Shown here one piece after another: positions 13,610 through 16,708 of a DNA stretch of 64,000 nt. Source of the stretch: Crocinitomicaceae bacterium (lineage in GTDB: Bacteria > Bacteroidota > Bacteroidia > Flavobacteriales_D > Crocinitomicaceae). A program made the position numbers and the translations under genes. The notes beneath the pieces are model-generated. The model was not told where the DNA came from. It did no database searches and worked only from the letters and a program-made list of their open reading frames with translations. The stretch is taken from contig JAJTCM010000007.1 of NCBI GenBank assembly GCA_021325675.1, positions 1 to 64,000 on the forward strand, given 5' to 3'. Within the stretch, counting starts at the first letter, position 1. Each line of letters begins with the position of its first letter.

Positions 13610-14809
13610 GTGAAACAATTCGATATCCCGGAGTTTTACCGCTCCCCCATCATCAGCAAAGTCAAGGCGCAGCGCAAGGCTGAAGATCCCCGTAAAAAGG
13701 ATTTTACACCTACGCGCTTGTCTTTGGGGAAAATCGAGTTCCTGATTGCGCGCCATTTTGGTTTTTGCTACGGCGTTGAAAATGCGATCGAAATTGCCTA
13801 CAAAGCCATCCGCGAAAATCCGGGCAAAAAAATCTACCTGCTCAGCCAGATGATCCACAACCCGGGCGTTAATGAAGATCTGCAGTCTTACGGTTTGGAT
13901 TTCATCCAGGATACGCACGGAAAACAGCTGATTCCATGGGAAAACATCAAAGCGGAAGATGTTGTGATTATCCCGGCTTTCGGTACAACCCTCGAAACGG
14001 AAAAAATCCTGCGTGATCTCGGCGTGAATGTCGAAAGCTACAACACCACTTGCCCTTTCGTTGAAAAAGTATGGAACCGCTCCGAAAAACTGGGCACAGA
14101 ACAGCATACAATCATCATTCACGGGAAACACGACCACGAAGAAACGCGGGCTACGTTTTCACACAGCCGCCAGAACGCGCCTTCCCTCGTAATCAAAAAC
14201 ATGCAGGAAGCCGAAATTCTCTGCGATTTTATTCTCGGAAAACGACCGGAAGCAGAATTCTACGAGTTTTTTAAAGGAAAATATTCCCCGGGCTTTGATT
14301 TCCGGAAAGACTTTGATAAAATCGGGGTTGTGAACCAAACAACAATGCTCGCTTCCGAAACGCAGGAAATCACCGAAACAATTTATAAAGCCATGGAACA
14401 GCGTTATGGCGCTGAGAACATCAAAGATCACATGGCCGATACGCGTGATACGCTATGCTACGCAACGAATGATAACCAAAGCGCGACTTACGGCCTGATG
14501 GAATCGGATGCCGACCTGGCTTTCGTGATTGGCGGTTACAACAGCTCAAACACCAGCCATTTGGTGGAACTGCTCGAAACAAAATTCCCGACCTATTTTA
14601 TCAAATCCGCGGAAGAAATCATAAATAAGGAGCAGCTGTTCAGCTTCAATATCCACACGAAAGAGCTGGAGCACAAACAGAATATTTTCCCGGAAAAAGA
14701 AATTGTGAAAATTGCTGTTACTTCAGGCGCTTCCTGCCCGGATGCGGTCGTGGACCAGGTGTTACAGAAAATTGCTTCGCTTTACGGCCTGGACTTCGAT
14801 TTGCAATAA
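13610..14809 (+). CDS. ispH: 4-hydroxy-3-methylbut-2-enyl diphosphate reductase, long form
   Basis: Last enzyme of the MEP isoprenoid pathway; an iron-sulfur protein that makes IPP and DMAPP. The three cluster cysteines are in GFCYGVENA, YNTTCPFV and GASCPDAV. At 399 residues it is longer than the roughly 315-residue E. coli type. It has an N-terminal extension and an insertion (about 200-235), resembling the cyanobacterial/plant-type IspH. The only plausible start is the GTG at 13610: an in-frame stop lies at 13589-13591 and no ATG follows for about 80 codons. It is divergent from the methionine operon. Confidence 0.93.
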   Translation: MKQFDIPEFYRSPIISKVKAQRKAEDPRKKDFTPTRLSLGKIEFLIARHFGFCYGVENAIEIAYKAIRENPGKKIYLLSQMIHNPGVNEDLQSYGLDFIQDTHGKQLIPWENIKAEDVVIIPAFGTTLETEKILRDLGVNVESYNTTCPFVEKVWNRSEKLGTEQHTIIIHGKHDHEETRATFSHSRQNAPSLVIKNMQEAEILCDFILGKRPEAEFYEFFKGKYSPGFDFRKDFDKIGVVNQTTMLASETQEITETIYKAMEQRYGAENIKDHMADTRDTLCYATNDNQSATYGLMESDADLAFVIGGYNSSNTSHLVELLETKFPTYFIKSAEEIINKEQLFSFNIHTKELEHKQNIFPEKEIVKIAVTSGASCPDAVVDQVLQKIASLYGLDFDLQ

Positions 14810-15001: not shown

Positions 15002-16708
15002 ATGGAGCACTTTATCAATATTCTGATTGTTGACGACAACCCTACCAACCAGCGTGGTTTAAAAGAAATCCTGAACGGGGGTGGAAATAACGTTTTGCTT
15101 GCTGACTCGACTGAAGAAGCCTTGCACAGCCTGAACCAAAAAGAAATCGGGATCCTGATCGTAAATATCGACAAACGGGAATTCGGCGGTATTGAGCTGC
15201 TCACAGAAATCAAAAACAAGGAACAATTCCGGAATGTTTATAAAGTCGTTCTCACGGAACAATCAAGCACGTCGACGCATATTGTACGCGGCCTCAACGA
15301 AGGGGCGATTGATTTCCTGACGATGCCTTTCAGCCCCAACCTGGTGAAGGCCAAAATTGAGATTTACAAATCCTTATATTACAAAGACGGGCGGATCCGC
15401 CAGCTTCTGACGAACATTTTCCCGGAAAAGGTACTCGAAGACCTCAACACCAGCGGAAAATTTTCCCCGAAACGAATCGAAAACGGGGTTGTTTTATTCA
15501 CCGACTTCGTGAACTTCTCCAACAAGGCGAAAGCCATCAACCCGATGAAGCTGCTCAAAAAGCTGGAATCGTATTTCACCAAATTCGATGAGATCACGAA
15601 CCGTTACCGCCTGGAGAAAATCAAAACCATCGGGGATTCCTATATGGCGATCGCCGGGGTGACCGAAACGCTGGAGCACCCTGAAATCCGGGCTTGCCTG
15701 GCAGCGCTCGAAATGCGTGATTTCATGCACAACGAACGCGACGTGGCCAAAGCCCTGCGCAAGGACTTTTGGGAAATCCGCATCGGGATCCACGCCGGGC
15801 CGCTGGTAGCCGGTGTGATAGGTACTAAAAAATTCAGCTTCGACGTTTGGGGCGATACGGTGAACATAGCTGCCCGCGCCGAGCAGTCTGCCGAAAATGA
15901 CTCTATACTCATTACGAAATCAGTTTCTAAAATGGTCGAGGATTATTTCGATATTTCAAACCCGAAAGAAGTTGAGATCAAAAAACGCGGCGGTATGATC
16001 GAAATGTTCAAGCTCGACCGCCTGAAATTGCCTTACTGTCTTTACGGTGAAGGAAAAATTGCCAACGCCGATCTCCTGCGTAAATGCGAATTACCAAGCA
16101 GCGATTTCGATCACATGCAGAAAGATATTCTTAACCGGCTCAAATCCATGCTGCCTGAAGAGCTCGCTTACCATGATATCAACCACACCTGTAATGTTGA
16201 AAAGGCTGCGCTCCGTTTTGCCAAGCTCGAAGGCCTTTCTTCTTACGAAATGATGCTGCTGCGCACGGCGGTTTATTATCATGATGCCGGTTTCCTGGTT
16301 CAATATGACGATAATGAGGATTTTGCCATCAAAATGGCGCAAAGCCTGCTACCATATTACGGTTACAGTGAAGACGAGATCGAAGTGATTACCGGGATTA
16401 TCAATGCCACCAAAAGCCACAATGAACCGGAAAATATCCTGCAAAAGATCATGTGCGACGCTGATCACGATTACCTCGGACGTGCAGACTATTACCACGT
16501 AGCCAAAAAACTGCGCGAGGAAATGGAAAATTACGATGTAATGATGTCCGACATCGAGTGGGTGGAATTTCAGCTTAATTTCCTGGAAAACAAGCACGAA
16601 TATTATACGGAAACAGCCAAAAATATTCGCCAGGGCGGCAAAAAAGCCCGGATCAACGAATTAGGCAAGCTGCGTGCTGAGCTCCTGAAAAACGCTGCGA
16701 TCAAATAG
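15002..16708 (+). CDS. Pseudo-receiver / class III adenylate cyclase / HD-domain protein
   Basis: 568 residues in three parts. Residues 1-125 are a receiver fold: the acidic pair D11-D12 is present, but the phospho-acceptor position is N55 (LIVNID) and the conserved lysine is M108 (LTMPF), so phosphorylation is unlikely. Residues about 160-340 are a class III nucleotide cyclase with metal ligands D168 and D212, substrate-specifying K208 (EKIKTIGD) and D281 (FDVWGD), and transition-state N288 and R292. The K/D pair predicts ATP as substrate and cAMP as product. Residues about 385-500 resemble an HD phosphohydrolase (H395, H427-D428, distal aspartates near 486-489). The protein may therefore both make and hydrolyse a nucleotide. 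It is soluble, with no signal peptide. A weak -7 box TACCTTTA lies near 14978. Confidence 0.85.
   Translation: MEHFINILIVDDNPTNQRGLKEILNGGGNNVLLADSTEEALHSLNQKEIGILIVNIDKREFGGIELLTEIKNKEQFRNVYKVVLTEQSSTSTHIVRGLNEGAIDFLTMPFSPNLVKAKIEIYKSLYYKDGRIRQLLTNIFPEKVLEDLNTSGKFSPKRIENGVVLFTDFVNFSNKAKAINPMKLLKKLESYFTKFDEITNRYRLEKIKTIGDSYMAIAGVTETLEHPEIRACLAALEMRDFMHNERDVAKALRKDFWEIRIGIHAGPLVAGVIGTKKFSFDVWGDTVNIAARAEQSAENDSILITKSVSKMVEDYFDISNPKEVEIKKRGGMIEMFKLDRLKLPYCLYGEGKIANADLLRKCELPSSDFDHMQKDILNRLKSMLPEELAYHDINHTCNVEKAALRFAKLEGLSSYEMMLLRTAVYYHDAGFLVQYDDNEDFAIKMAQSLLPYYGYSEDEIEVITGIINATKSHNEPENILQKIMCDADHDYLGRADYYHVAKKLREEMENYDVMMSDIEWVEFQLNFLENKHEYYTETAKNIRQGGKKARINELGKLRAELLKNAAIK

Follow-up and report, generated by a model that had tools for sequence, protein, structure and literature searches.

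A conserved Crocinitomicaceae protein joining a degenerate receiver, a class III adenylate cyclase and an HD domain with phosphodiesterase-like residues

The window, i.e., the whole stretch of 64,000 nucleotides of Crocinitomicaceae DNA analyzed here, encodes on its forward strand a protein of 568 aa with an ATG start, in which a receiver, a class III adenylate cyclase catalytic domain and an HD domain follow one another (Table 1). In the Pfam search with this single protein, the first two domains were matched by Response_reg and Guanylate_cyc, the latter with 145.4 bits against a cut-off of 21.9. The HD region on its own stayed slightly under the cut-offs: HD-CE was matched over residues 387–441 (E 3.6e-05, 24 bits vs. 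the cut-off of 27) and HD (PF01966) over residues 393–489 (E 0.0012, 19.5 bits vs. the cut-off of 22). The full-length AlphaFold2 model, built for a single chain from 41 orthologues, had a mean pLDDT of 89.2 and a pTM of 0.82, and the HD domain folded alone reached a pLDDT of 94.0. The open reading frame, the Pfam matches and the fold agree with the sequence-only reading, which had described one protein combining these three domains, and the residues N55, M108, D168, K208, D212, D281, N288 and R292 were confirmed by number. In the model, the receiver and the cyclase are joined by a long helix, a possible signaling helix.

Table 1. Features of the receiver–cyclase–HD gene and their positions in the window.
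Feature	Position	Strand	Evidence
Receiver–class III adenylate cyclase–HD protein	15002..16708	+	568 aa + stop; ORF and orthologues
Degenerate receiver domain, residues 7–119	15020..15358	+	PF00072, E 7.3e-17
N55 codon (aat), phospho-acceptor position	15164..15166	+	N 49, D 10, S 7, P 1 of 67 orthologues
M108 codon (atg), conserved receiver lysine position	15323..15325	+	K in 30/67 orthologues
Long helix joining receiver to cyclase, residues 112–137	15335..15412	+	AlphaFold2 model
Class III adenylate cyclase catalytic domain, residues 157–333	15470..16000	+	PF00211, E 1.8e-42
HD domain, residues 352–548	16055..16645	+	Profiles, fold, model of the HD domain alone
Y390-H391...H395, YH motif and first metal histidine, PDE-like	16169..16186	+	67/67; aligned to PDE4D YHNNIH
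H427-D428, HD pair	16280..16285	+	67/67; aligned to PDE HD pair
D488, metal aspartate	16463..16465	+	67/67; aligned to PDE 'ADL' aspartate
Q524-L-N-F527	16571..16582	+	Q 67/67, F 17 / Y 50; aligned to PDE purine-binding glutamine and aromatic clamp

Matches at E <= 1e-30 were found in 98 of 100 Crocinitomicaceae genomes, some of which contribute only a paralogue of approximately 1300 aa or a similar cyclase–HD protein. Since these matches are accompanied by 67 full-length orthologues, the open reading frame is a real gene. The named organisms with matches included Brumimicrobium mesophilum (of a genus belonging to Crocinitomicaceae), Fluviicola, Lishizhenia and Crocinitomicaceae bacteria. All orthologue counts given below refer to the alignment of 67 distinct full-length receiver–cyclase–HD proteins of Crocinitomicaceae. 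The remaining family matches mostly show the second architecture of approximately 1300 aa, exemplified by the same-genome paralogue L070:5893-9813:- of 1307 aa with Reg_prop propellers, Y_Y_Y, cyclase and HD domains. It has the same cyclase–HD pair (39% identity over residues 128–558) but a large Reg_prop sensor region where the present protein has the receiver. In the phylum-wide sample, an HD domain of this family was detected at E <= 1e-8 in 103 of 296 genomes, either free-standing (approximately 200 aa) or within HD–PycTM, HD–YitT, TPR–HD and GAF–cyclase–HD proteins. The receiver–class III cyclase proteins L194, L178 and L198 have the receiver directly before the cyclase, as here, but no HD domain was detected in them, unlike in the present protein.

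The search for conserved neighbors in the relatives returned ispH/lytB, a cobalamin adenosyltransferase, a sigma-70/ECF-type factor and a LuxR-type response regulator as recurrent genes, each named from Pfam on one representative. The ispH/lytB gene was found near the cyclase gene in 21 of 54 orthologue loci; in 18 of 50 loci it precedes the cyclase gene in the same orientation, frequently a few bases away, so the cyclase gene may be co-transcribed with this isoprenoid gene. It occupies positions 13610–14809 of the window and was seen, among others, at L033, L035, L037, L044, L072 and L074. Downstream, the cobalamin adenosyltransferase was present in 14 of 50 loci and, on the opposite strand, the sigma factor in 13 and the response regulator in 11. 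A conserved kinase partner next door was also looked for and none was recognized among the 14 largest neighbor clusters listed.

The mean pairwise identity among the 67 orthologues is 0.595 in the cyclase, 0.518 in the HD domain and 0.405 in the receiver, which is thus the least conserved part of the protein. The receiver fold is kept (D104 in 67/67, P109 in 65/67). Of the 67 orthologues, 57 have lost the acceptor aspartate and 37 lack K108, and just three combine D55, K108 and the acidic pair, the full phosphorylation set. The residue check confirmed that the present protein has lost both the acceptor (N55) and the lysine (M108), as had been claimed. In a quick cyclase–HD tree, the D55 rows are scattered among the N55 rows, the three orthologues with the full set are grouped with N55 proteins only, and the four rows nearest to this protein have N55 too, with L or F at position 108. 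The presence of N55 in the nearest rows and in most orthologues indicates that the loss is old and family-wide; a local error at N55/M108, the alternative raised by the sequence-only reading should relatives have intact receiver residues, is ruled out by relatives with N55 and a variable residue 108. The further claim that a normal two-component output is impossible is correct for the present protein but is not extendable to every orthologue, because D55 is retained in 10 of 67 and the full set in 3 of 67. No signal of D55–K108 covariation was obtained from the 67 orthologues, in which such pairs are too few. Hence, in this family two conserved enzymes follow a receiver that has generally degenerated.

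Two residues past the lost acceptor, 57 of 67 orthologues have an acidic residue at position 57 (D in 48, E in 9; D57 here, 15170–15172), and T or S occupies position 85, likewise in 57 of 67. Together with D55 in 10 of 67 and with the downstream gene for a response regulator (receiver and LuxR-type HTH, opposite strand, 11/50 loci), these residues could speak for an ordinary phospho-switch that still works, e.g., one that uses D57 or imitates the phosphorylated form. However, acceptor and lysine are both missing here, K108 is lacking in more than half of the alignment and no histidine kinase was recognized in the neighbor clusters mentioned above (six representatives scanned), and we consider a working phospho-switch distinctly improbable. 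The receiver of this protein would instead work without phosphorylation, as a dimerizing or partner-binding input acting via the 112–137 helix.

The alignment with adenylate cyclase 9 showed the complete class III residue set in the second domain, i.e., two metal aspartates, the adenine Lys/Asp pair and the Asn/Arg pair. D168, K208, D212, R260, D281 and N288 are present in 67 of 67 orthologues and R292 in 66 of 67, in accordance with the earlier statement that the cyclase keeps all metal and substrate residues. The K/D pair is of the adenine-selecting type established for class III cyclases. Since every catalytic residue is located on one chain, the cyclase is expected to form a homodimer with two active sites, which, judging by its residues, would turn ATP into cAMP. 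The PADLOC PycC models also match the cyclase (best E 3.3e-12) and might hint at a Pycsar-type defense enzyme, but this match is much weaker than the Pfam class III match, the PycTM effector is absent from this genome and present in only 2 of 60 family genomes, and the protein is broadly distributed through Crocinitomicaceae. A Pycsar role is therefore highly improbable.

The third domain belongs to the HD superfamily both by profile and by fold, as the sequence-only reading had proposed. PF01966 was matched at E <= 0.01 by all 41 isolated HD segments of the orthologue alignment (best 5.1e-11), HD-CE by 22 of the 41, and the H...HD...D set is present in 67 of 67 orthologues. Y390, H391, H395, H427, D428, N438, E439, T470, D486, D488, D490, R494, E507 and Q524 are all invariant (67/67). 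The GYP motif of HD-GYP proteins is absent from the translated sequence. Foldseek ranked bacterial HD proteins first (2pjq at E 2.5e-4, YpgQ 5dqw, 2pq7), with PDE5 at approximately 7e-3. The VIA re-alignment of the Foldseek matches gave Z 17.9 for PDE10A (4dff_B, rmsd 2.9, 194 residues), Z 17.1 for the choanoflagellate RhoPDE (5vyd_A, rmsd 3.2, 202 residues) and Z 17.0 for the bacterial hydrolase 2pq7 (rmsd 3.8, 164 residues). As these scores differ by less than 1, they are regarded as tied, and PDE10A fills the VIA list because many PDE10A entries exist.

The resemblance of the HD domain to class I cyclic nucleotide phosphodiesterases (PDEs) is new relative to the sequence-only reading. When an HD alignment of 40 rows was compared with the domains of human PDE4D, PDE9A and PDE10A in an unconstrained hhalign run, E was 2.5e-5 (one comparison), with a probability of 75 and a score of 40.9 over 148 columns; the best of 300 column-shuffled PDE alignments scored 22.1 and the reversed one 13.2. 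The 40-row alignment (A3) was hand-assembled from Q-carrying HD domains, with the N, S and T rows left out, so the Q in A3 proves nothing alone; the Q counts not chosen by residue are those of the orthologues (67/67) and of the cyclase–HD fusions (44/44). The run paired the YH motifs of both sides, H395 with the next PDE histidine, H427-D428 with the PDE HD pair, A469-T470 with the PDE AT, A487-D488 with the AD of 'CADL', Q524 with the glutamine of 'QVGF' and F527 with its phenylalanine. Thus, the profile alignment contains the class I PDE metal ligands H, H, D and D, which we take to be the first-shell residues, together with the YH histidine, and Q524/F527 fall on the purine glutamine and the aromatic clamp. 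In PMC5617230, the invariant PDE glutamine is described as purine-scanning, and the clamp and eight metal-pocket residues are listed. The remaining PDE metal-pocket residues (the His after the HD pair, a Glu and a further His) were not found in this alignment: the PDE histidine four residues past the HD histidine falls in a gap, and E439 is a candidate equivalent of the metal-pocket glutamate.

Other comparisons with the PDEs reached less far. PF00233 (PDEase_I) was without a match among those listed at E <= 1 for this protein. The narrower family profile A2 gave a probability of 21.5 and E 0.001 over 82 columns, ending before Q524; the similarity of sequence profiles to the PDEs is weak and confined to the first half of the HD domain, with bacterial HD proteins ranking higher. 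A free-standing HD protein (L092) touches PDEase_I at E 0.0088, under the cut-off. The Bacteroidota genomes were also considered as a source of PDE sequences and rejected, with PDEase_I in 0 of 247 genomes; as it likewise turned up in none of the control genomes, this negative carries little weight. Because of the missing PF00233 match, the weak A2 result and the gapped histidine, we do not class the HD domain as a class I PDE. It shares with PDE4D, PDE9A and PDE10A the fold, the YH motif, the four metal ligands and the Gln/clamp positions, but lacks the profile match and the His following the HD pair, and it is shorter. It plausibly works like a class I PDE. By homology, the metals would be held by H395, H427, D428 and D488, H391 would serve as the proton donor, and Q524 together with F527 would hold the base.

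The HD domain might also cleave another substrate, such as a nucleoside triphosphate, pyrophosphate, ppGpp or a cyclic dinucleotide. The closest solved sequences and Foldseek matches include bacterial 2pq7, YedJ and YpgQ with ADP, five of the 41 family HD domains touch the Ppx-GppA domain III profile and, as stated above, about half match HD-CE. This reading is nevertheless unlikely in view of the Q/F base-binding pair aligned to the PDEs, the steady partnership with cyclases described below, and the Pfam matches listed at E <= 0.01, which contain no HD-GYP or RelA/SpoT-type profile.

Coupling of cyclase and HD domains is widespread in the family. In 50 family genomes, 85 of 107 cyclase matches have an HD domain after them on the same strand at a distance of up to 250 nt, and 34 of these genomes show this coupling for all of their cyclase matches; some of the 22 cyclase matches without HD lie at contig ends. 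The present genome has two PF00211 matches, both followed by HD, and a third, distant HD (E 5e-7) stands alone. Among 50 free-standing HDs of the phylum sample, which were collected with a profile trained on cyclase–HD proteins and are related by descent, 10 have a class III cyclase at a distance of no more than 5 kb. The number expected from cyclase number and genome size under random placement was 0.37, and none of 100,000 simulations reached 10. At L144 and L152, a free-standing HD gene begins approximately 27 and 21 nt past a cyclase; both loci came from the cyclase-seeded search and are outside these 50, but inside the 11 and the 7 given in the next paragraph.

Position 524 varies with the company that the HD domain keeps. 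All 44 cyclase–HD fusions with an intact metal site (loci L089–L279) have Q there. Intact free-standing HDs are divided: of the 11 whose fetched locus contains a cyclase no more than 5 kb away, 7 have Q and the other four T, T, A and N, the cyclase neighbors of these four scoring low (22 to 56 bits); of the 37 lacking such a cyclase, 9 have Q. HDs with a C-terminal extension longer than 120 aa numbered 31. The two HD–YitT proteins of this set (L094 and L100) have Q, and the other 29, whose tails are Pycsar-like or similar, have N (20), T (4), S (2), G (1), D (1) or Q (1), so that all but one lack the glutamine. Pfam identified PycTM in six of these proteins, including the Q-bearing L273, and in the rest the tail was assigned by eye; in L269, Pfam found no PycTM. 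PycTM belongs to a cCMP/cUMP system. The HD–PycTM proteins of Bacteroidota (approximately 400 aa) have an HD domain of the same family with an intact metal site, but no cyclase, and position 524 is mostly N vs. Q in the present protein.

Some of these loci deserve separate mention. The Bacteroidota proteins at L107–L109, L112–L114, L116–L118 and L260–L279 except L269 have a PycTM-like tail and mostly N at 524. At L277, the HD–PycTM gene (2–1267, +) faces an incomplete frame (1295–1693, -) with a weak match of 28.5 bits to the cyclase model. L094:1531-2988:+ and L100:613-2067:- encode an HD fused to a YitT/DUF2179-type membrane protein, assigned by Pfam for L094 and by likeness for L100, and the L100 gene lies 13 nt past a receiver–cyclase gene.

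The HD metal site is dead in 7 of 51 cyclase–HD fusions, which shows that the HD domain can persist as a non-catalytic part. These Bacteroidota proteins (L151, L155, L169, L161, L163, L164 and L166) have intact cyclase residues, and at L151, L155 and L169 the same locus holds a cyclase–HD protein of 466–468 aa with a live HD. Other members of 463–469 aa (L156, L157, L159 and L162) have altered cyclase residues. A strict complementary decay within the Bacteroidales gene pairs, with a dead cyclase beside a dead HD, was considered and not seen as such, because the partners of 466–468 aa keep the main cyclase residues, with R260K in two. The dead-metal HDs retained behind intact-residue cyclases demonstrate that the fold can serve without catalysis, and the HD domain of the present protein might likewise be an allosteric sensor of cAMP or another nucleotide for the cyclase, with little or no physiological hydrolysis. 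Yet the catalytic-type residues are found in 67 of 67 orthologues and would be unneeded by a mere sensor, so we regard a purely sensory HD as quite unlikely.

Altogether, we consider it fairly probable that the protein is a soluble two-enzyme cAMP device with a cAMP synthase and a phosphodiesterase on one chain and a phosphorylation-independent receiver. The HD domain would act as a compact bacterial class I PDE-like phosphodiesterase for a cyclic purine nucleotide, with the cAMP made on the same chain as its most likely substrate, and the balance of both activities in one molecule would set the steady-state cAMP level or end a pulse. The sequence-only reading is thus partly supported: its residue and HD assignments stand, its statement on the receiver output is narrowed to this protein, and its suggestion that the HD domain could hydrolyze the cyclase product is strengthened by the PDE-like residues, including Q524, and by the association with cyclases.

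An arginine in the cAMP pocket is the usual motif of cAMP binding. It was not seen by eye in the five cNMP_binding proteins of this genome, and consequently a classic cAMP reader is not in sight. The strongest cNMP_binding protein of the genome is a receiver–CRP protein beside a kinase-like gene. At L205 (contig C1 of the same genome, approximately 148.0–150.3 kb; gene names partly assigned by eye), a histidine-kinase-like gene of 405 aa directly precedes a receiver–CRP-like protein of 351 aa, which has the receiver D and K and whose CRP-like part is without the usual cAMP-pocket arginine.

A counterpart outside bacteria is CAPE (COMBINED AC with PDE) of Marchantia and other streptophytes, which consists of a class I PDE and a class III cyclase separated by two predicted membrane helices (PMC5159850, PMC8115329). 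As in the present protein, a class III cyclase and a phosphodiesterase domain with its metal residues kept share one polypeptide. In CAPE, the PDE comes first and the cyclase last, whereas the order here is reversed (receiver–cyclase–HD), and the CAPE PDE is of class I, whereas the present HD is unrecognized by the PDEase_I profile. The protein is hence not a member of the CAPE group as defined by class I PDE, membrane helices and cyclase. No bacterial cyclase–HD or cyclase–PDE fusion was met in the titles and abstract openings of a literature set of partial coverage, with most subscription papers outside it, and a term search of PMC4886424 returned neither 'HD domain' nor 'phosphodiesterase'. 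The Crocinitomicaceae protein is real, conserved and well-formed.

A wider hypothesis, which we offer tentatively and with more doubt than confidence, places the whole HD family as a bacterial sister of the class I PDEs in which residue 524 sets the base: Q for purine cyclic nucleotides (cAMP/cGMP) where the HD is coupled to a cyclase, N for pyrimidine cNMPs in most of those coupled to a Pycsar effector. Bacteroidota would then carry built-in erasers fused to a synthase or to a membrane effector. Under this hypothesis, writer and eraser of cAMP would share a single chain in the present protein, controlled by a phosphorylation-free receiver. If true, residue 524 (Q or N) would be a testable determinant of cyclic nucleotide choice, also relevant to the HD–Pycsar effectors. 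Bacteria would own a compact domain related to the animal PDE domain targeted by drugs, joined to the cyclase that makes its substrate and borne by most class III cyclases of Crocinitomicaceae. One molecule may write and erase its own cAMP signal, which would provide a cheap and direct test of opposing activities coexisting on one chain and open a route into cAMP physiology in Bacteroidota.
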